Below, piece by piece: positions 1-14,713 of a DNA stretch of 50,402 nt. Position 1 is the stretch's first letter; each line of letters opens with the position of its first letter. A program made the position numbers and the translations under genes. A model generated the notes under the pieces. It was given only the letters and a program-made list of their open reading frames with translations. It was not told where the DNA came from and ran no database searches. The stretch is from Sulfurovum sp. (GTDB lineage Bacteria; Campylobacterota; Campylobacteria; Campylobacterales; Sulfurovaceae), in contig JAAXPZ010000075.1 of assembly GCA_012329065.1 (NCBI GenBank), positions 1 through 50,402 of the forward strand, written 5' to 3'.

Positions 1-963
1 AAATTGAGTACTCGTTCATGGTCAAAAAGTAAACCTATTCAGCTTATTAAGTATTTTGAATTTGTATATAAAGTAGTTAAAGAGTATAAAACTAGCGATA
101 TTCTCCACTGTAACGATCTAAACGCACTTCCCATAGGCTATATAATAAAAAAGTTTTACAATAAAAATGTAAAGATAGTTTATGATGCACATGAATACGA
201 GATAAATGATATACCAAACGAGAGTAAATATAGTATAAAGATAAAATACTTTATAGAAAGGTTTCTCATAAAACATGCAGACACGGTTATATGTGTAAGT
301 GACTCAATCGCCAACGAGTATGTAAGGCTTTATAACATAGTCAAGCCTTCACTGGTGCTAAACACACCAGCATACAAGACAATAGAAAAAAAAGATATAT
401 TTCGAGAAACGCTCAATATATCAAAAGAGAAGACCATATTTCTCTATCAGGGAGGATTGAGTAGAGGTAGGGGCATAGAGATACTTCTTGAAGCCTTTAA
501 AACCATAGAAGATGACAAGAACGTGATAGTCTTTATGGGGAATGGTACACTGGAACAGACTATAATCAATGATGTAAATAAATACAACAATATCTATTTT
601 CATAAAGCCGTAACTCCTGACATCCTGCTAGACTTTACTTGTAGTGCAGACTTTGGGATACTGTTTTATGAAAATAGTTGCCTAAACCATGAATATTGCT
701 CGCCAAATAAAATGTTTGAGTACCTTATGGCAGAACTCCCTGTAATAGTTTCAAACCTTTATGAGATGAAGAGACTGGTGGAAACTAACAATATAGGGAT
801 AGTAGCAAAAGAAAATACACCTGCTGGCTTAAAAGAGGCAATCAAAGTAGCGGTAAAACTAGACAATGAAGAGCTACAGAAAAATATCCAAAAAGTGAAA
901 GAGATTTATAATTGGGAAGAGCAGGAGAAGGTTTTATTGAAAGTTTATGAGGAGTTGTATTAG
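1..963 (+). CDS. GT4-family glycosyltransferase, 5' end cut off by the window
   Basis: Partial gene: the frame is open to base 1 and no convincing start is seen, so the N-terminus lies upstream. The visible 320 residues match the paralogous GT4 enzyme at 2808-3956 from about its residue 80 onward. Shared landmarks are an IVYDAHE-like segment, a YQGGLSRGRGIE nucleotide-sugar loop, and a final EYCSPNKMFEYLMAELPVI segment, the GT4 acidic/donor-binding region. It should move a sugar from a nucleotide donor onto a lipid-linked glycan at the cytoplasmic membrane face; donor and acceptor cannot be read from sequence. Its stop codon overlaps the GTG start of the asparagine-synthase-like gene by one base, so the two are translationally linked. 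Confidence 0.88.
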   Translation, partial: KLSTRSWSKSKPIQLIKYFEFVYKVVKEYKTSDILHCNDLNALPIGYIIKKFYNKNVKIVYDAHEYEINDIPNESKYSIKIKYFIERFLIKHADTVICVSDSIANEYVRLYNIVKPSLVLNTPAYKTIEKKDIFRETLNISKEKTIFLYQGGLSRGRGIEILLEAFKTIEDDKNVIVFMGNGTLEQTIINDVNKYNNIYFHKAVTPDILLDFTCSADFGILFYENSCLNHEYCSPNKMFEYLMAELPVIVSNLYEMKRLVETNNIGIVAKENTPAGLKEAIKVAVKLDNEELQKNIQKVKEIYNWEEQEKVLLKVYEELY

Positions 964-2771
964 TGTGTGGGATTAGTGGAATAATCAATAAAAATCAAAA
1001 ACAGGTTAATGAAGATGAGATAAAAAGCATAAATGACTTAATAACTCACAGAGGTCCAGATGATGAGGGGTTTTATCATGAGAGAAACTTTGCATTTGGG
1101 CACAGGCGACTCTCTATCTTGGACTTGAGTAGTGATGGGCATCAGCCAATGCACTATCTGGATGAGAGATATACGATAACTTATAATGGTGAAGTTTATA
1201 ACTATCTTGAGATTAGGGATGAGCTCAAAAAAGATGGATATACCTTTCACTCCGATACAGACACGGAGGTAGTACTCGCAAGCTATGATAAATGGGGTGA
1301 AGAGTGTGTAAATAGATTTAATGGGATGTGGGCATTTGCAATATACGATAAAGAAAAAGATACTATCTTTTGTAGTCGTGATAGGTTTGGAATAAAGCCT
1401 TTTTACTATACAGAGATTGATGGTAGGTTTATATTTGGATCAGAGATTAAACAGCTTTTAGAGTTTTATAGTCAAAAGTTTGTAAATAAAAATGTTTTAA
1501 TGGATTATTTGATTATAGGCTATGAGGATCATACAAATGAAACTTTTTTTGAGAATATATTTAAATTGGAGCAATCGCATAATTTAACATATTGTTTAAG
1601 AAGTAATACATTTAAAATTAATAAATACTATAGTATTAAAAAAAGAAATTTAAATAAAAACGAAAAAGACTCTATTGACAAGTATCGGAAATCTCTTTTT
1701 AGTGCAATTGAATTGAGACTAAGAAGTGATGTAAAGGTCGGTACATGCCTTAGCGGAGGGCTTGATAGTTCATCTATAGCCTCCGTTGCGTCAAAAGAAT
1801 ATCAAAATAAATCTGCCAGTCAATTTACGGCTATTCATGCAAAGTCATTTCAGCAGAACAATGATGAAAGCAAGTATGCACAAGAAGTAAGTGATTATTG
1901 TGATTTAGATTTAAGTATTATTGAGCCAATAACTGATGAGTTTCTAGAAAACATAGATGAAGTGGTATACACACAAGAGGAGCCATTTGGCGACTCTTCG
2001 GTATTTATGCAATACTTCGTTATGAAAAAAGCTAGAGAAATTGGCTGTATTGTGATGCTTGATGGGCAAGGTGGGGATGAAACCCTCTTGGGGTACGAGA
2101 GATATTATCCAGCATATTTAAAAAGTTTAAGTTTTTTAGAAAGAATAAGTGGAATTTTTAGCTCTACAAAAAATTCAAAATTAAGTTTAGTACAGCTTTT
2201 GCAGTATTATGTGTATTTTACAAATGCAAAGATACGCCTATCTAGGCTTTTAAAGCAAAATAGCTTTGTAAAAACTGAATATATGAGTATGATAAATCAA
2301 AAACTTTTAGATCAAAGTGCTAGAAGCTTCATGGATACTTTTGAGTTGCAAAAACTTGAAATATTTAAAACACAGATGCCACATCTTTTGAGATATGAAG
2401 ACAAAAACTCTATGAGAAATTCGGTAGAAACTAGACTACCATTTATAGATTATAATGTTTTAGAAACTGCAATTAACACTCATGAAAACTTGAAAATAAA
2501 AGATGGTTGGACTAAATATATTTTAAGAAAATCAGTTGATAATATATTGCCAAGTAGTATTGTATGGAGAAGAAATAAACTTGGCTTTGAAGCCCCTACT
2601 AAGAGTTGGATGTATAGTATTGAAGGTCAAATAGAGAAAATGATAGATAATTCCAAGATTATTAACACAGTTACTGATAATATAGATTTTAATAAATTAA
2701 ATGAAATTCAAAAATGGAAGCTTTTTAATATTGCGAAGTGGGAACAAATTTATGGCGTAGAGATTAGATAA
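963..2771 (+). CDS. asnB: Asparagine synthase (glutamine-hydrolysing) family amidotransferase
   Basis: A GTG start places Cys2 (MCGISGI) as the N-terminal nucleophile of a class II glutaminase domain (about residues 1-200). This is followed by an ATP-pyrophosphatase synthetase domain with SGGLDSS near residues 264-270, and the length of 602 residues is normal for AsnB. Ammonia freed from glutamine is transferred to an adenylated carboxylate. In a polysaccharide locus such proteins may amidate a sugar acid rather than aspartate; that is inference from context. GC content falls abruptly along the gene: about 44-50% in sampled 60-base blocks at 1081-1260, but about 17-18% at 1621-1680 and 2641-2700. 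The shift lies near the domain boundary and hints at a mosaic origin. Confidence 0.88.
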   Translation: MCGISGIINKNQKQVNEDEIKSINDLITHRGPDDEGFYHERNFAFGHRRLSILDLSSDGHQPMHYLDERYTITYNGEVYNYLEIRDELKKDGYTFHSDTDTEVVLASYDKWGEECVNRFNGMWAFAIYDKEKDTIFCSRDRFGIKPFYYTEIDGRFIFGSEIKQLLEFYSQKFVNKNVLMDYLIIGYEDHTNETFFENIFKLEQSHNLTYCLRSNTFKINKYYSIKKRNLNKNEKDSIDKYRKSLFSAIELRLRSDVKVGTCLSGGLDSSSIASVASKEYQNKSASQFTAIHAKSFQQNNDESKYAQEVSDYCDLDLSIIEPITDEFLENIDEVVYTQEEPFGDSSVFMQYFVMKKAREIGCIVMLDGQGGDETLLGYERYYPAYLKSLSFLERISGIFSSTKNSKLSLVQLLQYYVYFTNAKIRLSRLLKQNSFVKTEYMSMINQKLLDQSARSFMDTFELQKLEIFKTQMPHLLRYEDKNSMRNSVETRLPFIDYNVLETAINTHENLKIKDGWTKYILRKSVDNILPSSIVWRRNKLGFEAPTKSWMYSIEGQIEKMIDNSKIINTVTDNIDFNKLNEIQKWKLFNIAKWEQIYGVEIR

Positions 2772-2807: not shown

Positions 2808-3956
2808 ATGAATATTTTACATTTAACGCAGACAGATATTAAGTCTGATTCTAGAATATTAAAAGAAATGAATAGTATTGCGACATTAAACAGTACTTAT
2901 GAGGTCAGTGGGATAGGCGTGATTTTAAATAGAGGTGAAAAGCATACAAACAATAAGGACAATCTAGATATCTACTCTATTATTCTCAAGTCAAGAGAAT
3001 GGAGGTTTCTTCCAAGGGTTATTAGACATACATGTTCACTTGTAGAGCTCACTTTTAAAATGTTTTATAAAGCCAAAAAACTGCAACCAAAAGTTATTCA
3101 TTGTCATGACACCCTTGTGTTGCCATTGGGTGTCATGGTGAAAGCTTTTACAGGAGCAAAGCTCATATACGATGCCCATGAGTTGGAGTCTGATAGAAAT
3201 GGATTGACAAAGATACTAGGGAAGTTGACACTATTTGCAGAGAAAGCATTGTGGAGATATGTGGATGCTTTAATCGTCGTAAGTCCATCTATAGAGAAAT
3301 GGTATATGGAAAATATTGGTGATAAGTACTCGGAGATAGTTTTGAATTCTCCTGTACTAGAAAAAGAAGAGTCTTCTAAAGAAAGTAGCTATCTTAGAGA
3401 GTATTTTTCGATACCAAAAGAATCAAAAATATTTTTATATGTAGGCGGGTTAGTGCATGGTAGAGGTATAGAATTGTTAACAGACGCATTTAGAGTCTCT
3501 GACATAAAGTCTAGTTTAGTTTTTTTGGGCTATGGCACATTAAGTGATGAGCTAAAAGAGATAGCTAGTAGTTCTTCAAATATATATGTGCATGATGCAG
3601 TACCGCATGAAGAAGTAGTCCCTGTAGCGAAAAGCGCAGATATAGGATTGTGTTTGATACAAAATGTATCATTGAGTGATTACTATTGTTTGCCAAATAA
3701 ATTGTTTGAATACTGTTTTGCGGAGATTCCAGTTTTAGCATCGGACTTTCCCGATATTTCAGCTACAGTTAAAAAGTATAATCTTGGAAAATGTACAGAG
3801 TTAAATAGTGCAAGTATTTATGAGGCTATAAAGGAGTTTGAAAATATGGAAGTATTAGAAAATATTGATATCAACAAATTGTATGAACTTAGTTGGGAAG
3901 CTCAAGAAGATAAACTTATTAAATTGTATGAACAAATAATTAAAGTGCAAGGATAA
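2808..3956 (+). CDS. GT4-family glycosyltransferase
   Basis: 382 residues with the GT-B fold pattern of family GT4. An N-terminal Rossmann half begins MNILHLTQTDI with SDSRILKE. A central YDAHELESDRNG segment follows, then FLYVGGLVHGRGIELL, the start of the C-terminal donor-binding domain, and YYCLPNKLFEYCFAEIPVL near the end. It is a clear paralog of the truncated first gene of the window, sharing the YDAHE, GGL-x-x-GRGIE and PNK-x-FEY blocks in the same order. It follows the AsnB-like gene after 36 bases and precedes a second Cys-initiated amidotransferase by 3 bases. Likely role: cytoplasmic assembly of a lipid-linked glycan. Specificity is unknown. Confidence 0.87.
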   Translation: MNILHLTQTDIKSDSRILKEMNSIATLNSTYEVSGIGVILNRGEKHTNNKDNLDIYSIILKSREWRFLPRVIRHTCSLVELTFKMFYKAKKLQPKVIHCHDTLVLPLGVMVKAFTGAKLIYDAHELESDRNGLTKILGKLTLFAEKALWRYVDALIVVSPSIEKWYMENIGDKYSEIVLNSPVLEKEESSKESSYLREYFSIPKESKIFLYVGGLVHGRGIELLTDAFRVSDIKSSLVFLGYGTLSDELKEIASSSSNIYVHDAVPHEEVVPVAKSADIGLCLIQNVSLSDYYCLPNKLFEYCFAEIPVLASDFPDISATVKKYNLGKCTELNSASIYEAIKEFENMEVLENIDINKLYELSWEAQEDKLIKLYEQIIKVQG

Positions 3957-3959
3957 GCT

Positions 3960-5789
3960 ATGTGTGGTATTTTTGGCCAAGTTTCCAAATCAAAAGTAGA
4001 TAAAAACAAGCTAAATAAGCTAGTAAAACATTCTGAACAAAGAGGTGTTGATTCTTCTGGTTTGATATATTATGAAGATGGAAGATATAGCATCCAAAGG
4101 GCAGATTATAATATAGAAAAACTTTTAAAACAAGTGAAACCTTACGCCTCTAAAATAGTTTTAGGTCATAGTCGTCTTATTACAAATGGATTAGGCGATA
4201 ATCAGCCAGTGGTTTATGATGGTCTTTGTGCTATTCATAATGGGGTTATTGTGAATGAAAAAGAAGTTTGGGAAAGTATTGGGCTAGAGAGAAAACTACA
4301 AATTGACTCAGAAGCTATTGTAGCAATAGCTTCTGAACATTTACAAAATGGTGGTGAAATCTCTGAAATATCAAATAAAGTACTTAGTTTATGTAGGGGT
4401 GTTATCGCTTGTTCTTTACTTGTTCCTTCAGAGGGACAAATTATACTTTTCTCCAACAATGGCAGTTTGTATGTAGGTGAAAGTGATGATAGCATATATT
4501 TTGCATCTGAGAATTATGCTTTGAGCCAAGTTGGCTGTAGTAATATTAGACAAATAAAAGAAGAGGCTTTTTTTATTGATATTCCAGCTTCTCAAAAAGA
4601 ATTAAGCATTAAAGATGTTAGCACAAGAAAAGAAAATTTAATTCCTGAGTTCTCTTATGGCAAAATACAAGAAAACTTACTCGAATATAAAGAGTTGAAA
4701 AACTTAAAAAGATGCACAAGATGTATTTTGCCTGAGACAATGCCCTATATAAAGTTTGATGAGCAAGGTGTTTGTAATTATTGTCATAACTATACACCTC
4801 GCAATAAACCAAAACCAAAAGAAGAATTATTTAAAATTGTAGAGTCTTATCGTTGTGAGCATGGAGAGGATTGTATTGTGCCTTTTTCAGGAGGTCGCGA
4901 TAGTTGCTATGGTTTACATCTCATCATAAAAGAACTTGAAATGAAACCAATTACTTATACCTATGATTGGGGAATGGTAACAGACTTGGGTCGTCGAAAT
5001 ATCTCTCAAATGTGTGGCGACCTAGGGATAGAAAATATTATTGTAGCTGCTGACATTTCTAAAAAAAGGAAAAATATAAAGATGAATCTTAAGGCATGGC
5101 TAAAGTCTCCAAATCTAGGAATGATGGCTATGTTAACGGCTGGAGATAAGCATTTTTTTAGACATGTAGAGAGTATTAAGAAACAAACTGGTATTAATTT
5201 AAATCTTTGGGGGGTCAATCCTTTAGAGGTAACGCATTTTAAAACAGGGTTTTTAGGAATAGAGCCAGACTTTGAAGAAAAGAGAGTTTATAGTCATGGT
5301 GCTATGAAGCAGCTTAGATACCATTCAAAGCGATTTAAGGCAATGACAAAAAGTCTGGGCTATTTTAATAGTTCTTTATGGGATACGCTCTCAGGAGAAT
5401 ATTATAGAAGCTTTACTGAGAAAAAAGATTATTATCATATCTTTGATTATTGGAGATGGGATGAAGATGAGGTAAACAATACTCTGATAGACGACCATGG
5501 TTGGGAAATCGCTATAGACACAAGTACAACATGGCGTATTGGAGATGGGACAGCAGGGTTTTACAATTATGTATATTATACGGTTGCTGGTTTTACGGAG
5601 CATGATACATTTAGATCTAATCAAATTCGTGAAGGTCAAATGACAAGAGAAAAAGCTTTGGAGTTAGTTATGGATGAAAATAGACCAAGGTATCAAAATA
5701 TTCGTTGGTATTTGGATACTTTAGGTATGGACTTTGAAGAGGTAATTAAAATTGTTAATGATATACCAAAAATATATAAAGAGGCATAG
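3960..5789 (+). CDS. Fused class II glutaminase and WbpG-like N-acetyl-sugar amidotransferase
   Basis: Two enzymes appear joined in 609 residues. Residues 1 to about 220 begin MCGIFGQ, and Cys2 is the expected nucleophile of an Ntn-type glutaminase; GHSRLITNG and CAIHNGVI are typical of that domain. From about residue 245 the protein looks like the WbpG/PseA family: a four-cysteine zinc-type motif (C252, C255, C272, C275), a PP-loop SGGRDS at 310-315 and a long C-terminal alpha/beta region. Known WbpG proteins draw ammonia from separate HisH- and HisF-like partners, and no such genes are present here. The inference is that the fused domain supplies ammonia internally to turn a sugar carboxylate into an amide or an acetamido group into an acetamidino group. 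The downstream epimerase starts at the next base. Confidence 0.85.
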   Translation: MCGIFGQVSKSKVDKNKLNKLVKHSEQRGVDSSGLIYYEDGRYSIQRADYNIEKLLKQVKPYASKIVLGHSRLITNGLGDNQPVVYDGLCAIHNGVIVNEKEVWESIGLERKLQIDSEAIVAIASEHLQNGGEISEISNKVLSLCRGVIACSLLVPSEGQIILFSNNGSLYVGESDDSIYFASENYALSQVGCSNIRQIKEEAFFIDIPASQKELSIKDVSTRKENLIPEFSYGKIQENLLEYKELKNLKRCTRCILPETMPYIKFDEQGVCNYCHNYTPRNKPKPKEELFKIVESYRCEHGEDCIVPFSGGRDSCYGLHLIIKELEMKPITYTYDWGMVTDLGRRNISQMCGDLGIENIIVAADISKKRKNIKMNLKAWLKSPNLGMMAMLTAGDKHFFRHVESIKKQTGINLNLWGVNPLEVTHFKTGFLGIEPDFEEKRVYSHGAMKQLRYHSKRFKAMTKSLGYFNSSLWDTLSGEYYRSFTEKKDYYHIFDYWRWDEDEVNNTLIDDHGWEIAIDTSTTWRIGDGTAGFYNYVYYTVAGFTEHDTFRSNQIREGQMTREKALELVMDENRPRYQNIRWYLDTLGMDFEEVIKIVNDIPKIYKEA

Positions 5790-6845
5790 ATGAAAATAGT
5801 AAGCATTTTAGGTGCAAGACCACAGTTTATAAAAGCAGGTACTGTAAGTAGAGAGATAGCTAAGTACAAAGATATAGAAGAAGTGATTATCCACACAGGG
5901 CAGCACTATGATGCCAATATGTCAGATGTCTTTTTTGATGAAATTCAGATACCAAAACCACACTATAACCTAGATATAAATGGACTAGGGCATGGTGCAA
6001 TGACTGGGCAAATGCTAGAGAAGGTAGAAGGAGTATTGTTAAAAGAAAAACCTGACTGGGTGATGGTCTATGGTGATACAAACTCTACATTGGCTGGGGC
6101 ATTAGCAGCTTCTAAACTGCACATAAAAGTAGCTCATGTGGAAGCAGGGTTACGCTCTTTTAATATGAAGATGCCAGAAGAAGTCAACAGGATACTTACA
6201 GATAGGATGAGTACCATACTTTTTTGCCCCACACAAAGTGCCAGAGATAATTTAGCCAATGAAGGGTATGGCAATCTTGATATAGCAGTGATACACAATG
6301 GTGATGTGATGCAAGATGGAGCTATATTTTATAAGGATTTAGCAGTAAAACCAAAAGTAAAACTAGAAGATGAATATATATTGTCTACCGTCCATAGGGC
6401 TGAAAATACAGATGATTTGGAATGCCTAAGTGCCATAGTATCAGCACTGAACGAGATAGCCAAAGAGATACAAATAGTGGTACCTCTTCATCCTCGAACC
6501 AAAGCTATACTAGGGAAGAACAATATGACAACAGATTTTACAATTATTGAACCCATAGGGTACCTAGAGATGGTGTACTTGATCAAAAATTCAAAACTCA
6601 TTATGACCGATAGTGGTGGGCTTCAAAAAGAGGCATTTTTCTTTGAAAAACCGTGCATAACACTTAGAGATGAGACGGAGTGGGTTGAGTTGGTGGAGCA
6701 TGGGTTTAATGTCTTGGTGGGTGCTGATAAAGAAAAGATATTGGCAGCTTATCATAATCAGCTGTTTAATGATAGTTTTGATATGGATTTGTATGGTATG
6801 GGCAAAGCGAGTGAAATGATAGTCGAAGCATTATTGGAATTTTAA
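5790..6845 (+). CDS. wecB: Non-hydrolysing UDP-N-acetylglucosamine 2-epimerase (WecB/WbpI family)
   Basis: 351 residues with the family's motifs in order: GARPQFIKA at the N-terminus, HTGQHYD, YGDTNST, HVEAGLRS, PEEVNRILTD, STVHRAEN and TDSGGLQKEA. The acidic residues in the VEAGLRS and PEEVNR blocks and the histidine in VHRAEN are those used by WecB to epimerise C2 of UDP-GlcNAc to UDP-ManNAc. Beside a WbpG-like amidotransferase it could instead be a WbpI-type enzyme acting on a diacetamido-uronic acid; sequence alone does not decide. The ATG follows the preceding stop directly, and its own stop overlaps the next start (TAATG). Confidence 0.9.
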   Translation: MKIVSILGARPQFIKAGTVSREIAKYKDIEEVIIHTGQHYDANMSDVFFDEIQIPKPHYNLDINGLGHGAMTGQMLEKVEGVLLKEKPDWVMVYGDTNSTLAGALAASKLHIKVAHVEAGLRSFNMKMPEEVNRILTDRMSTILFCPTQSARDNLANEGYGNLDIAVIHNGDVMQDGAIFYKDLAVKPKVKLEDEYILSTVHRAENTDDLECLSAIVSALNEIAKEIQIVVPLHPRTKAILGKNNMTTDFTIIEPIGYLEMVYLIKNSKLIMTDSGGLQKEAFFFEKPCITLRDETEWVELVEHGFNVLVGADKEKILAAYHNQLFNDSFDMDLYGMGKASEMIVEALLEF

Positions 6846-8056
6846 TGAATATTTGGATTTTTAACCATCATGCACTCACGCCCGACATGAGTGGAGGGAC
6901 AAGACATTATGATTTCGCAAAAGAGCTCACCAAAAGAGGGCATAGTGTAACCATCGTAGCTTCTAGCTTTCATTACTCCAAATACGAAGAGATGAAAGAG
7001 TATGATGATAAAGAATTTTTACAAGAACAAATAGATGGCGTCGATTTTGTCTGGATAAAAACACCTGCATACTTTGGGAATGGAGTGGCTAGGGTTAGAA
7101 ATATGTTGAGCTACACATATAAAGTTTTAAAAATCATACCCAAACTAAAACTAAAAAAGCCAGATATTATTATAGGCTCATCTGTACATCTTTTTGCTGT
7201 GTATGGTGCGTATAAGCTGTCTAAAAAATATGCTACTCCTTTTGTGATGGAGGTAAGAGATATATGGCCTCAAACATTGATAGACATGGGTATATCAAAA
7301 TGGCATCCATTTATAATAATGCTCGGGTGGCTTGAAAAATATCTCTATAAAAAAGCAGATAAAATCATCTCAAATCTTCCTTATGCGTATGAACATATAG
7401 AAAAGTTTGTTTCTAAAAATAAATTTGTTTGGATTTCAAATGGTGTTGACCTTGACAATATCCCGTATGTAGAAAAAGAAAAGACAGATATATTTGTAAT
7501 TAGCTATACGGGGGCTATTGGTGTGGCAAACAATTTAGCATTATTGGTAGGTGCAGCAATAAATTTAAAAGACAAAAAAGATATCTTATTTAGAATAGTT
7601 GGAGATGGTGCAGAAAAAGCAAAACTAAAGAAAATAGTAAAGTCAAAACAATTAAAAAATATATCTATTGAAGATTCTGTGTCCAAAGGTGAAGTATCGG
7701 GCATACTAAAGTCAAGTGATGCATTGTATTTTAACCTTAAAGATAGCCCTGTGTTTAATTATGGCATAAGCTCTAACAAGCTTTTTGATTACATGGCATC
7801 AGGGAGAGTTATAATATTTTCAAGTAAAGCAAGAAATAATCCAATTAGAGATGCAAATGCTGGATATACAATAGACACTGGTGATATAGAGCAACTGGAA
7901 AAAGCAATTTTGGGCATATATGCACTAAAACAAGATGAAAGAAATAAAATAGGCAGAAAGATTAGGAGATATACTGAAGAGAATTATGACATAGATATAC
8001 TTGTTGACAAACTGGAAAGTATTTTGAAGCATGAAGTGCTACTGTGGAAAGATTAA
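6845..8056 (+). CDS. WbuB-like GT4 glycosyltransferase
   Basis: 403 residues. The start MNIWIFNHHALTPDMSGGTRH, with an SGGTRHYD loop and HSVTIVAS, is typical of the WbuB branch of GT4 enzymes. Members described in O-antigen loci add N-acetylfucosamine or a similar 6-deoxy amino sugar. A central EVRDIWPQTL segment and a late FNYGISSNKLFDYMASG block, the donor-binding region, support the assignment. It overlaps the epimerase stop by one base and ends about 90 bases before pglB, where a promoter-like TATAAT suggests a new transcription unit may begin. The donor sugar is not determined. Confidence 0.85.
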   Translation: MNIWIFNHHALTPDMSGGTRHYDFAKELTKRGHSVTIVASSFHYSKYEEMKEYDDKEFLQEQIDGVDFVWIKTPAYFGNGVARVRNMLSYTYKVLKIIPKLKLKKPDIIIGSSVHLFAVYGAYKLSKKYATPFVMEVRDIWPQTLIDMGISKWHPFIIMLGWLEKYLYKKADKIISNLPYAYEHIEKFVSKNKFVWISNGVDLDNIPYVEKEKTDIFVISYTGAIGVANNLALLVGAAINLKDKKDILFRIVGDGAEKAKLKKIVKSKQLKNISIEDSVSKGEVSGILKSSDALYFNLKDSPVFNYGISSNKLFDYMASGRVIIFSSKARNNPIRDANAGYTIDTGDIEQLEKAILGIYALKQDERNKIGRKIRRYTEENYDIDILVDKLESILKHEVLLWKD

Positions 8057-8143: not shown

Positions 8144-10243
8144 GTGTTTAGGGAAAAAGAATTAGGCTGGAAAGAGATTGGCATATTGATGCTCATCGCA
8201 TATATATTTAGTTTTGCCATAAGGATGATTTGGGTCTATCAATTTCAAGACAATCCAAACTTTATGTGGAATGGGCAACTGATGATAAATACCAATGACG
8301 GCTATTTTTTTGCTTCAGGAGTAGAATATTTACTAAGTGGAGCTCATGCTGATAATCCTCGTGTACCAATAGCTATCAATTCGTACCCAGGTCTTGTATA
8401 TGTAAGTTATCTTTTTGCCAAATATACACCAATGTCACTAGAGACTACTATCCTGTATCTTCCTGCAATCATATCTGGTCTAATGGTTATACCTATGATT
8501 ATGGTGGGCAAGCTCATTAAATTGCCATGGATTGGGTTTTTTGCTGCTCTACTTGGCTCGATTGCATGGAGTTACTACAATAGAACAATGATAGGCTACT
8601 ATGATACAGATATGTTTTCTGTCCTGCTCCAGTTTACAATTCTGTATTTTTTTCTGCTTACGATTTATAATAAAGATAATAAAAATGTACTATGGTTATC
8701 TTCTTCATTACTCCTGTATCCATACTTTTACCCTCAGGGATTGACAATTATATATGCCATGTTTATATTATGGTCACTTTACCAGTTTGTTTTTCAAAAA
8801 GACGAAAAAAATAGTTTGATTTTTATTATTGTGGCATCAGTTTCTCTTTGGGCAATACCTATTTGGATTAAAATAGTTTTGATTCTTTTTCTTTTTCTTT
8901 TTTTAGAAAAAATAAAAGATAAGCTAGATAGTAGAAAATTATTTTATCTTTCATTGGGAGCTATTATCGTATTTCTATTTTTCGGAAATGTGTTTGGATT
9001 ACTTATGGAGAAGTTAAGTGTCTATCTGTCTCGTGGCATGGAGCAGGAGGGACTTAGTTTTTATCAGGTTATACAAACAGTGAGAGAAGCAGGTTCTATA
9101 CCTTTTTCTACGATGGCAAATAGAATTTCGGGCTCACAAGTGGGAGTTCTGTTGAGTCTCGCTGGCTATGTTGTTTTGGTTTTTAGGCATAAGCCGTTTA
9201 TTATCGCGTTGCCACTGATAGGTGTAGGCGTCTTGTCTCTATGGGCAGGCTTGAGGTTTACAGTATTTGCTGTACCAGTTGCGGCATTGGGTGCAGTATA
9301 TCTTTTTTATGTACTAGGAGAGTTATTTAGGGATAAAAAACTTCAATATGTATTTGTTGTACTGGCGACCGTAGCAATGCTATATCCAAACATTAAGCAC
9401 ACAATAGCATACAAGGTGCCAACTGTACTTAACAAGGCGGAAGTGGGAGACTTGACAAAATTAAACAAAATTTCGAATCCCAAAGATTATACAATATCTT
9501 GGTGGGATTATGGATATCCTATCTGGTTCTACTCTGAGACCTCTACACTTATAGATGGAGGTAAGCATCATAATGATAATTTTATTATCTCTAAAATTCT
9601 ACAAACTACATCACCTGAACTTGCTGCAAATTTAAGTAAACTGGCAGTGGAGACATATGTTGACTCTAACTATTCTGTAGTATCTAATACTATATTTAGA
9701 AACAAACAAAAGAATCAGCTTGATCCAAATATACTTTTGACTGAATTGGAAGACAGTAGCTATAAGCTTCCTAAGAAGACAAGAGAGGTATATCTGTACT
9801 TACCATATAGAATGATGAATATATTTCCCACTGTAATGGTGTTTGGTAATCTGGATTTGAATACAGGCAAGAAGCTTAGAAATCCAATATTCTATCCAAT
9901 AAATATGATATCTAATAAAAACAATATGATAGCCTTTTCTAATGGTATGGTTTTTGATATGAAAAAGGGAGAAATTGATATAAGGGGTGCGAAGAGGAGT
10001 GTCAAGAGTTTTATTGTAACGCAAAATAGCAATGATGGCAAAATCACACTTAAGCCCCAGTCATATCACATGGATGGAGAATTAATTGTTGTCTACATGA
10101 AGAGCTATGGTAGATTTGTTGTCATGGATACAGAGACCTTTGGATCGATGTTTGTGCAGATGTTTATACTTGGAAAGTATGATAACAATCTTTTTGAACC
10201 TGTAGTGGCTTCACCATATAGTAGAATTTATAGGGTAAAATAG
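8144..10243 (+). CDS. pglB: Oligosaccharyltransferase PglB (STT3 family)
   Basis: 699 residues, close to the 713 of Campylobacter jejuni PglB. A multi-spanning membrane domain covers about residues 10-430, followed by a periplasmic C-terminal domain. The catalytic markers sit where expected: D52 in the NTNDGYFF first-loop acidic motif, T312-V-R-E315 matching the TIxE loop, and WWDYG at 453-457, the sequon-reading motif (457-461 in C. jejuni). The enzyme transfers a lipid-linked oligosaccharide to asparagine in extended Asn-x-Ser/Thr sequons on the periplasmic side. The GTG start is chosen because GAGGGG lies just upstream and no in-frame ATG is nearby. The stop overlaps the GTG start of pglC by one base. 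Confidence 0.95.
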
Positions 10244-10851
10244 TGCTTTATAGGTCAATAGTTAAGCTGATACTTGATAGGAGCTTGGCACTGTTGTTGA
10301 TATTGTTTCTCTCACCTCTAATATTGTTTGTGGCAATATTGGTCTATATAAAAATTGGACGACCTATGTTATTTAGGCAAGTCCGTCCAGGACTACATGA
10401 GAAACTCTTTACTATTTATAAGTTCAGAACAATGACAAACGATAGAGATGAAGATGGGGATTTATTGCCTGATGGGCAAAGGCTAGAAGCATTTGGCACT
10501 CTTGTAAGAAGTACTAGCTTGGATGAGCTTCCCCAGCTTTTCAATGTACTTAGGGGGGATATGAGTTTCGCGGGCCCTCGTCCTTTGCTTGTGGAGTATC
10601 TACCTCTCTATAGTGAGCGTCAAAAAAGAAGACATGAGGTTAGACCAGGTATTACTGGTTGGGCTCAAATAAACGGCAGAAACACTATAACTTGGGAGCA
10701 GAAGTTTGAATATGATGTTTGGTATGTTGAGAACTTATCTTTTGGTTTAGACATGAAAATAGCTTGGATGACACTTCTTAGGGTTATCAAGAGAAGCGAT
10801 ATAAACTCTGAAAAATCCATTACAATGGGAAAGTTTAAGGGAGGGAGATAG
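10243..10851 (+). CDS. pglC: Phosphoglycosyltransferase PglC (monotopic)
   Basis: 202 residues of the bacterial sugar transferase family. An N-terminal re-entrant membrane helix carries the helix-breaking Ser24-Pro25, and the catalytic Asp94-Glu95 pair lies in [10 protein letters not shown], matching D93-E94 of C. jejuni Pgl[16 protein letters not shown] and [14 protein letters not shown] are the usual family blocks. It attaches a phospho-sugar, N,N'-diacetylbacillosamine in Campylobacter, to undecaprenyl phosphate, the first membrane step of N-glycan assembly. The start is GTG, overlapping the pglB stop. The neighbouring pglE and pglF support bacillosamine-type chemistry. Confidence 0.92.
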
Positions 10852-10853
10852 CA

Positions 10854-12350
<1,497 letters not shown>

Positions 12351-12351
<1 letters not shown>

Positions 12352-14132
12352 TGCAAAGCCTCTTGCGACCTACAGCTTTTAAAAGAACTATGTTTTTTGC
12401 TGCATCCGATATACTTCTATCACTGCTAACGCTGTATCTTGCCTATGCACTTCGCTTTAACTTCGCTATTCCTTCTATGTTTTTAGAGTCATTTTGGTTT
12501 GTATTTGTTGTTATTGCGGGATTAAAATTATTGCTGTTTTATGTATATAAGTTGTACTTTTCTGTATGGAGATTTTTTAGCTTTTATGAGGCAAAGTCAC
12601 TAGTCAAGGTGCATGTTATATCCTATGTATTATTCATTGTGATATTTTTTGCCTTAAATGGATTATTTGACCCCTTTCCAAGATCTGTAATCATAATTGA
12701 TTTTTTCTTGTCATTGATATTTTTAGGAGGACTTAGGGCATCTAAAAGGATTTTCTCAGAAAACCAAGGTAATCAAAGTGTCAAGCCTGCACTTATTATA
12801 GGTACAGGAAGCAAGGCAGCTACAATAATACAGAGTGCACTCAAGGGAGAAATCGATTATTATCCTCATGCCATAATATCTCTAGCAGATAATGAGATGA
12901 CGAAAAATGCTTACATCAACAATATCAAAATCTATGAAGAGAAGATGATGGAAGAGATTGTAAAGAACAATGAAATAAATACTGCAATCATCACAAATCA
13001 GCTCACAGCAAAAAAGCTACATACATTGGTCAAGCGTCTCAACTCCATAGGCATCGACGAGATCAAACAGGTAAAAATGTTGGGATCAGAGCATGATAAA
13101 CTTGAGGATTTATCCATTGAAGACTTGCTAGCCCGCCATCCTAAAGACTTGGATACTAAAATAATCTCAGAATTTATTAAAGGAAGTTCCGTGTTAATTA
13201 CAGGAGCAGGAGGAAGCATAGGGTCTGAGATAGCAAGGCAATGTCATAGCTTTGGAGCATCTTCACTAACACTTGTTGACAATAGTGAATATAACCTATA
13301 TCAGATAGGAGAGCAGATCGGCAATGCAAACCTAAGGCTGGTAAACATAACAGAAAAAGAGGCTTTGGAAAAGGTGATAGAAAGTGCAAAGCCAGATATA
13401 GTAATCCATGCTGCTGCGTATAAGCATGTTCCACTTTGTGAAGAGAATCAGCAGTCTGCAGTACATAACAACATTCAGGGAAGTAAAAATATCATAGATT
13501 TAAGTATTGAACACGGAGTAGAAAAAGTGGTCATTGTATCTACAGACAAAGCAGTTCGTCCAACTAATGTTATGGGAGCTACCAAAAGAGTTGTTGAGCT
13601 TTATGCTACCAATATAGAATCTGGGCAGACTGATATCGTATCTGTCCGCTTTGGAAATGTGCTTGGGTCAAGCGGCTCCGTAATACCAAAGTTTAAAAAT
13701 CAGATAGAAGAGGGTGGCCCCGTTACAGTGACGCATCCAGATATCAATAGATACTTCATGCTCATCTCGGAGGCTTGTCAGCTAGTGCTTCAAGCGGCAG
13801 CTATTGCCAAAGGAAAGGAGTTGTTTGTATTGGATATGGGAGAGCCTATCAAAATCATGGATTTGGCAAAGCAAATGATACACCTCTATGGCAAAAAGGG
13901 AGAAGTGGAGATAAACATCATAGGGCTTAGAGCAGGGGAGAAACTATACGAAGAGTTGTTGTTGGATGAAGGCGATAAGCAGACTATATATAGCTCTATC
14001 TTTATTGCCACTCCAAGCCAATACGAGATTGAACAGCTAAAGCATGATATCGTATTATTATTGGAGTCAGAAAATAAAGTAGAGGCATTACAAAAGATTG
14101 TGCCAGAGTTTACACATGAAGTTATGGTATAA
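12351..14132 (+). CDS. pglF: UDP-GlcNAc 4,6-dehydratase PglF (membrane-bound)
   Basis: 593 residues from the ATG at 12351, which overlaps the pglE stop and has AAGGAAA upstream; C. jejuni PglF has 590. About four membrane helices lie in the first 140 residues. A degenerate Rossmann segment (ALIIGTGS) is followed by a full extended-SDR domain starting VLITGAGGSIGSE. The catalytic T398-D399-K400 is present, and the usual SDR tyrosine is replaced by M408 with K412 four residues later, as in the PglF/FlaA1 large-membrane group. It makes UDP-4-keto-6-deoxy-GlcNAc, the first committed step toward bacillosamine. Confidence 0.94.
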
Positions 14133-14133: not shown

Positions 14134-14191
14134 TTTTGTAGCTATTGTGGGGGGAACCATGATAGCAATCAAACAAAACAGGAGAATAGGT

Positions 14192-14713
14192 ATGTTTAAA
14201 ACATTGATTGTCAGAGTGATAGTGGGCATGTTTCTTATAGGAACAATGGCATTTGGTATGAGTTTAGCAAAGCTCAATAGTGCTAGTAAGTCAGAGCTTA
14301 TGGAGATAAACGGTGTAGGTGAAGTAAAGGCTGCTGATATCCTAAAACAGAGGAAAAAAGGGAAGTTTAAGTCTTTCAGTGATCTCACAGAGCGTGTAGA
14401 TGGCATAGGTGAGCAGACTGCTGCCAACATCAAAGGTGGTGTCAAAAACGCAGAAGATGTAAAAAAAGTTGTCAAAAAGAAAACACCTAAATCAAAAGCA
14501 AAACCTAAAAAAGATCTAAAAAAGAAGGTGACTAAAAAGCGAAAAACTACAAAAGAAAAAGTCGATGTCAAGAAAAACAAAGTCAAAGATAAAGTGAAAA
14601 AGAAGCCTAGAAAATTAAAGAAAGCAACTGAAAAAGAGAAAGAGCTTAAAAAGAAGTCCAAAAAAAAGAAGTCCAAAAAGAAGAAAATTAAAAAGACCAA
14701 GAAAACAAATTAA
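14192..14713 (+). CDS. ComEA-like secreted helix-hairpin-helix protein with lysine-rich tail
   Basis: Three parts are visible. First is a signal-peptide-like N-terminus (MFKTLIVRVIVGMFLIGTMAFG). Next is a ComEA-type double helix-hairpin-helix DNA-binding domain (LNSASKSELMEINGVG ... LTERVDGIGEQTAANI). Last is a C-terminal tail of 89 residues, of which I count 47 lysines. ComEA proteins bind incoming double-stranded DNA in the periplasm during natural transformation; most end soon after the HhH domain. The ATG at 14192 is preferred because AGGAGA stands six bases upstream and it gives a clean signal sequence. An in-frame ATG at 14159 after GGGGGGAACC is an alternative that would add 11 residues. 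The tail resembles histone-H1-like polybasic segments, and its function is unknown. Confidence 0.78.
   Translation: MFKTLIVRVIVGMFLIGTMAFGMSLAKLNSASKSELMEINGVGEVKAADILKQRKKGKFKSFSDLTERVDGIGEQTAANIKGGVKNAEDVKKVVKKKTPKSKAKPKKDLKKKVTKKRKTTKEKVDVKKNKVKDKVKKKPRKLKKATEKEKELKKKSKKKKSKKKKIKKTKKTN

Follow-up and report, generated by a model that had tools for sequence, protein, structure and literature searches.

A gene in a glycan cluster of a Sulfurovum sp. (Campylobacterota) encodes, in one chain, an Ntn glutaminase followed by a domain of the WbpG/N-acetyl-sugar amidotransferase (NASAT) type. The gene lies in the window, by which we mean the whole stretch of 50,402 nucleotides that was analyzed (contig JAAXPZ010000075.1, assembly GCA_012329065.1). 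On balance, its product is probably a self-contained, glutamine- and ATP-dependent N-acetyl-sugar amidine synthase, for which a GlcNAc-type compound is the likeliest substrate. The original prediction for this gene did not include the wide occurrence of the fusion, its coexistence with the separate WbpG-HisH-HisF trio in about a quarter of loci, or its linkage to one type of GT4 glycosyltransferase.

Domain architecture and active sites

The joining of an N-terminal-Cys glutaminase to a WbpG-like part, as originally predicted, was confirmed: both folds were found by hidden Markov model searches, by PDB searches, and by Foldseek comparison of an AlphaFold (AF2) model. The gene and its parts are as follows.

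3960..5789, + strand: fused glutaminase/N-acetyl-sugar amidotransferase-like gene, 609 amino acids, product starting MCGIFG (open reading frame, domain searches, model)
3960..4664, + strand: Ntn (class II) glutaminase domain, residues 1-235 (to about 230) (Pfam, GlmS match, invariant residues)
4707..5750, + strand: WbuX/WbpG-like (NASAT) PP-loop domain, residues about 250-597 (TIGR03573, profile comparison, fold)
4713..4784, + strand: tetracysteine C252-x2-C255-x16-C272-x2-C275 (alignment of 70 homologs)
4887..4904, + strand: PP-loop SGGRDS, residues 310-315 (alignment of 70 homologs)

On the N-terminal half, the Pfam families GATase_6 (41.2 bits; cutoff, 27) and GATase_7 (33.8 bits; gathering cutoff, 25) both scored above threshold, residues 2-204 matched the GlmS glutaminase domain in an NCBIfam-type profile search (E 3e-19), and a PDB sequence search returned GlmS structures 4amv and 1xff. 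On residues 250-597, TIGR03573 (WbuX) matched with an E value of 3e-42 at 145.3 bits, under its curated cutoff of 203.2, and the PDB sequence search returned 8wex, the Legionella N-acetyl-sugar amidotransferase LpNASAT. The family assignments first suggested for the two halves thus held for the GATase families and in part for TIGR03573, which was matched yet fell short of its curated score. The C-terminal half aligned end to end with the NASATs of the trio in hhalign (probability 99.8%, 22% identity), and local alignments of the fused protein with separate NASATs gave 22-34% identity. The AF2 model, built with 70 homologs, had a pLDDT of 87.8 and a pTM of 0.88. A Foldseek search with this model placed 8wex first (E 2e-15, TMt 0.56-0.59), followed by GlmS, AsnB, and PurF, and the match to glutaminase 1xff (TMt 0.71) agrees with the Ntn fold anticipated for the N terminus. 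Neither Pfam nor NCBIfam contains a model that covers the protein over its whole length.

The fused protein shares features with three groups of known enzymes and differs from each of them. With WbpG, WbuX, and LpNASAT (TIGR03573, 8WEX) it has in common the SGGxDS PP-loop, the tetracysteine site, the overall fold, and a location in polysaccharide gene clusters, but it carries a fused glutaminase in place of separate HisH/HisF, with only 22-34% local identity. Because the curated score is not reached and separate HisH/HisF partners are absent, it is not a standard member of TIGR03573. Its glutaminase domain resembles that of GlmS and PurF in fold and in the N-terminal Cys, Arg, Asn-Gly, and Asp of the glutamine site, but the domain is joined to a NASAT domain and there is no SIS isomerase or phosphoribosyltransferase domain; full-length GlmS models match only residues 1-204 (69-72 bits against cutoffs of 381-418), leaving the SIS part unmatched. 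AsnB and WbpS (TIGR01536, TIGR03108) likewise combine a class II glutaminase and a downstream ATP-pyrophosphatase domain in a single polypeptide and occur in the same clusters, whereas the synthetase half here is NASAT-like with a tetracysteine and would be expected to act on an N-acetyl group rather than a carboxylate. An identity as WbpS/AsnB was rejected, as Pfam detects no Asn_synthase domain and TIGR01536 matches only the N-terminal part (40.7 of 267 bits).

Residue conservation was assessed in 70 aligned homologs with 61-82% identity. The glutamine-site residues located by alignment with GlmS (C2, R72, N94, G95, and D116) are invariant, as are C252, C255, C272, and C275 together with G270, which fit the pattern CxxC...[GN]xCxxC, and the PP-loop S310-G-G-R-D-S315 of the SGGxDS type. 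The cysteines and PP-loop thus stand intact where they were predicted. According to the LpNASAT structure paper, the tetracysteine is a zinc site in that enzyme (PMC10607449). Given this invariance, both the glutaminase and the PP-loop sites look functional.

Gene neighborhood and ammonia source

In the window, the cluster runs from a GT4 gene cut by the contig end through an AsnB/WbpS-type gene, a second GT4, the fused gene, an epimerase, a third GT4, PglB, PglC, an acetyltransferase, LegC/PglE, and PglF.

963..2771, + strand: AsnB/WbpS-type amidotransferase, a separate class II GATase plus Asn_synthase (TIGR01536, 483 bits)
2808..3956, + strand: GT4 glycosyltransferase directly upstream of the fused gene
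5790..6845, + strand: WecB/WbpI-type nonhydrolyzing UDP-sugar 2-epimerase, here between the fused gene and its GT4
6845..8056, + strand: GT4 glycosyltransferase of the WbuB/WcaI type, which usually accompanies the fused gene
8144..10243, + strand: PglB-type oligosaccharyltransferase with WWDYG motif
10243..10851, + strand: PglC-type initiating sugar-phosphate transferase
10854..11261, + strand: hexapeptide acetyltransferase in the PglD position
11254..12351, + strand: LegC/PglE-type aminotransferase
12324..14132, + strand: PglF/WbpM-type UDP-GlcNAc 4,6-dehydratase

The AsnB/WbpS-type enzyme at 963-2771 suggests that a uronamide may be present in the glycan as well. Another contig of the host genome, C15 (L094 1-4086), terminates in WbpA-WbpB-WbpD-Wzx, probably the upstream portion that this cluster lacks. 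Just past the glycan genes, positions 14147-14713 encode a small protein that joins a helix-hairpin-helix region of the ComEA kind to a very long tail rich in lysine, and an antisense frame is also open there.

To our knowledge, acetamidino systems with WbpG or WbuX come with HisH/HisF-like partners. No hisH- or hisF-like gene lies in the cluster, as had been noted at the outset. With the window opening right at the end of contig C62, the question of a pair just upstream, which would speak against an independent enzyme, was answered from the host genome, which is 100% complete. That genome has one HisH, on contig C29 and immediately followed by a HisA-like match, and a single HisF, on contig C6, which scores 227 bits against the 310-bit cutoff of the acetamidino HisF2 family; a search of the complete genome for HisH2/HisF2 of the acetamidino type found neither, and the fused gene is the sole NASAT match. 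Since the only HisH and HisF are canonical and there is a single NASAT, no such pair exists at the genome level. Taken with the intact catalytic residues and with an architecture conserved elsewhere, this supports the earlier proposal that the enzyme may be self-contained, with an ammonia source separate from that of the trio. The LpNASAT structure paper states that little is known about how NASATs work and mentions neither HisH, HisF, nor glutamine (PMC10607449).

Proposed reaction, partner glycosyltransferase, and likely substrate

We propose that, after removal of Met, Cys2 of the Ntn domain would hydrolyze glutamine and that the ammonia would travel inside the chain to the PP-loop domain; we consider such single-chain transfer very likely. 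There, conversion of ATP to AMP and PPi, a step proposed for LpNASAT in its structure paper (PMC10607449), would activate the carbonyl in the N-acetyl group of a sugar nucleotide, and displacement by ammonia would leave an acetamidino group. With glutamine hydrolysis, ammonia transfer, and amidination in the same protein, one chain would take over the role of WbpG, HisH, and HisF; the probable product class, an acetamidino sugar, is that of the WbpG-HisH2-HisF2 and WbuXYZ systems, which use three proteins where the fused system uses one. The original prediction left open whether an amide or an amidine is formed, and homology favors the amidine, a chemistry that we regard as likely. The likeliest substrate would be a GlcNAc-type UDP-sugar amidinated at N-2, giving GlcNAm, or GlcNAmA if C6 is oxidized. 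The neighboring GT4 would then transfer the product, usually next to diNAcBac or another PglC/WbpL-primed first sugar, and in this organism the glycan would be attached to protein by the PglB-type transferase. The presence of PglB in the cluster makes a protein N-glycan plausible, and we consider that destination an even call.

Neighbors were counted in the 52 loci where the fused gene is flanked by 9 kb or more in both directions, and adjacency of GT4 was assessed in the 75 loci with room for it. A WbuB/WcaI-type GT4 lies directly downstream of the fused gene in 52 of these 75. The well-flanked loci contain this GT4 in 46/52 cases, PglC in 44/52, PglD in 36/52, WbpB plus WbpD in 23/52, and the full WbpG-HisH-HisF trio in 13/52. 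Since trio and fused enzyme coexist in those 13 loci, the two are not simply copies that could replace each other. Sixteen loci have this GT4 together with a separate NASAT; in every one of them the GT4 begins 4-81 bp past the fused gene, and its distance to the separate NASAT is 2-10 kb. From this spacing, the fused enzyme and its GT4 appear to form a functional unit apart from the trio. We therefore rejected the idea that the fused gene is a redundant copy of the trio: a separate NASAT can coexist with it but stands 2-10 kb away from the GT4 of the fused gene. Conservation of this GT4 is poor when set against that of the fused enzyme (26-57% identity to the window's copy). Two loci from Bacteroidota (L020 7714-8886 and L018 2-1465) have separate NASAT-like proteins near the fused gene with no HisH/HisF in the flanks examined, and in the L020 protein the tetracysteine motif looks altered.

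The O-antigen locus of Taylorella asinigenitalis ATCC 700933 is a minimal setting for the fused gene: its order is PglC-PglD-PglE-GT4-Wzx-FUSED-Wzy, and PglF follows later. That genome encodes no NASAT besides the fused one, a WbpB query has no match there, and a TviB-type UDP-GlcNAc 6-dehydrogenase is encoded elsewhere; together these make UDP-GlcNAc, UDP-GlcNAcA, or diNAcBac the likely substrates in this strain. Its O-polysaccharide, from work by Vinogradov et al. in 2008, is reportedly built from two sugars, QuiNAc4NAc and an acetamidino-GlcN-type residue. An O-chain of P. reactans NCPPB1311 has 2-acetamidino-glucose beside QuiNAc4NAc, with acetamidine carbon shifts of 166.6 and 19.7 ppm (PMC2746572), and may be a parallel to the sugar combination predicted here. 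This minimal locus and the GT4 adjacency in 16/16 loci point to a GlcNAc-type substrate, with GlcNAm or GlcNAmA as the product, which we favor tentatively. Nucleotide-sugar dehydrogenases do not decide between GlcNAc and GlcNAcA, because they are common to genomes with the fused gene (24/24) and controls (13/14 over the cutoff); TviB-type matches, present in 17 of 28 genomes, do not decide either. L-FucNAm made through FnlA/B/C was rejected, as FnlA exceeded its cutoff in 0/24 fused-gene genomes, with one strong match only (463 bits).

The same one-chain amidine chemistry might instead use a nucleotide-linked diamino-uronic acid, for example UDP-ManNAc3NAcA, as in the formation of ManNAc3NAmA by WbpG. 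The WbpB and WbpD homologs in 23 of 52 well-flanked loci, the WbpA/B/D genes at the end of contig C15 in the host genome, and the WecB/WbpI-type epimerase adjoining the fused gene in the window would all fit, but T. asinigenitalis has the fused gene in its O-antigen locus with no WbpB-query match, and loci with both systems already have the WbpG trio, apart from the fused gene's GT4; we consider this substrate unlikely. Frequent PglC (44/52) and PglD (36/52) could point to diNAcBac as the substrate, either as such or linked to lipid, with amidination at N-2 or N-4. However, the fused gene pairs with GT4 rather than PglC, and a Campylobacterota relative (G031) has the fused gene and GT4 next to WbpM/PglF and a priming enzyme of the WecA/WbpL type, while none of PglC, PglD, and PglE was found in the surrounding 19 kb, which argues against diNAcBac as a necessary substrate and makes this reading improbable.

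Two further possibilities concern the chemistry itself. A uronamide synthase would amidate the C6 carboxylate (HexNAcA to HexNAcAN), as is thought for WbpS/AsnB-type enzymes; a class II GATase with a PP-loop is the layout of AsnB, which Foldseek also finds, and a 216-Da residue of the Helicobacter pullorum N-glycan was assigned as HexNAcAN (PMC6025236), which has the same formula as HexNAmA. That residue nevertheless depends on WbpS (PMC6025236), the window already has an AsnB/WbpS-type enzyme, and the synthetase half is nearest to NASAT, with 8wex first and no Asn_synthase domain in Pfam, all of which leave carboxylate amidation distinctly unlikely. PP-loop domains are versatile, and one distant homolog is automatically annotated as 7-cyano-7-deazaguanine synthase, so another adenylation chemistry on a sugar or lipid carrier (e.g., thiolation or nitrile formation) might be imagined; with profile and fold matches to NASAT that include the tetracysteine site, and an intact glutaminase attached, we regard it as very remote.

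Distribution and significance of the fusion

A scan of bacterial and archaeal genomes yielded 165 encoding stretches, and the loci described here are the best 80 of these 165. In all 80 the match spans both halves with 61-82% identity, and they come from Campylobacterota, Bacteroidota, Pseudomonadota, Planctomycetota, Actinomycetota, Verrucomicrobiota, and other phyla, as assigned by record title. The frame is broken in two of the 80 (L071 and L081, contigs of metagenome-assembled genomes [MAGs]), through decay or assembly error. The fusion is not an artifact. Sampling of the window's phylum found it in 3 of 298 genomes, and sampling of the genus of one Pseudomonas carrier (G017) in 4 of 299; no match was found in phages; sporadic presence together with high identity suggests horizontal transfer. 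In a MAG labeled Patescibacteria (L003), a contig carries a copy 82% identical to the Campylobacterota copy of the window and is probably misbinned. Loci from MAGs labeled Brevundimonas and Bryobacterales (L064 and L065) agree in the genes that surround the fused gene and are identical over a 100-base stretch where compared, so that at least one is probably misbinned.

Plasmid copies are annotated as hypothetical protein or glucosamine 6-phosphate synthetase, and a 41% identical homolog is annotated as 7-cyano-7-deazaguanine synthase. On Solidesulfovibrio plasmid pDCAR1 (L086 8001-9965), a full-length homolog with 41% identity is followed by two asnB-type genes and represents a divergent branch of the same architecture. 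Few open-access papers name N-acetyl sugar amidotransferase or WbpG, and a fusion of glutaminase and NASAT was not found described in the accessible portions of that literature; it may be described elsewhere.

Acetamidino sugars are present in surface glycans of several well-studied bacteria. Conversion of an N-acetyl group to an acetamidine shifts the mass in mass spectrometry by just −0.984 Da. In uronic acids, moreover, amidine and uronamide are isomers. The joined form occurs in the sugar-coat gene clusters of many unrelated bacteria and is unnamed in the databases searched (Pfam and NCBIfam). The fullest reading, though doubtful, is that it constitutes a horizontally spread family of HisH/HisF-independent one-chain amidine synthases that, with their own GT4, add GlcNAm or GlcNAmA in the second position of glycans primed with diNAcBac, among them PglB-dependent protein N-glycans in Campylobacterota. 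Because members are annotated as hypothetical proteins, GlmS-like, or QueC-like, acetamidino sugars have probably been overlooked in many gene clusters. If the proposed function is true, amidine formation on the N-acetyl group of a sugar would be easier to assay with one chain that brings its own glutaminase.
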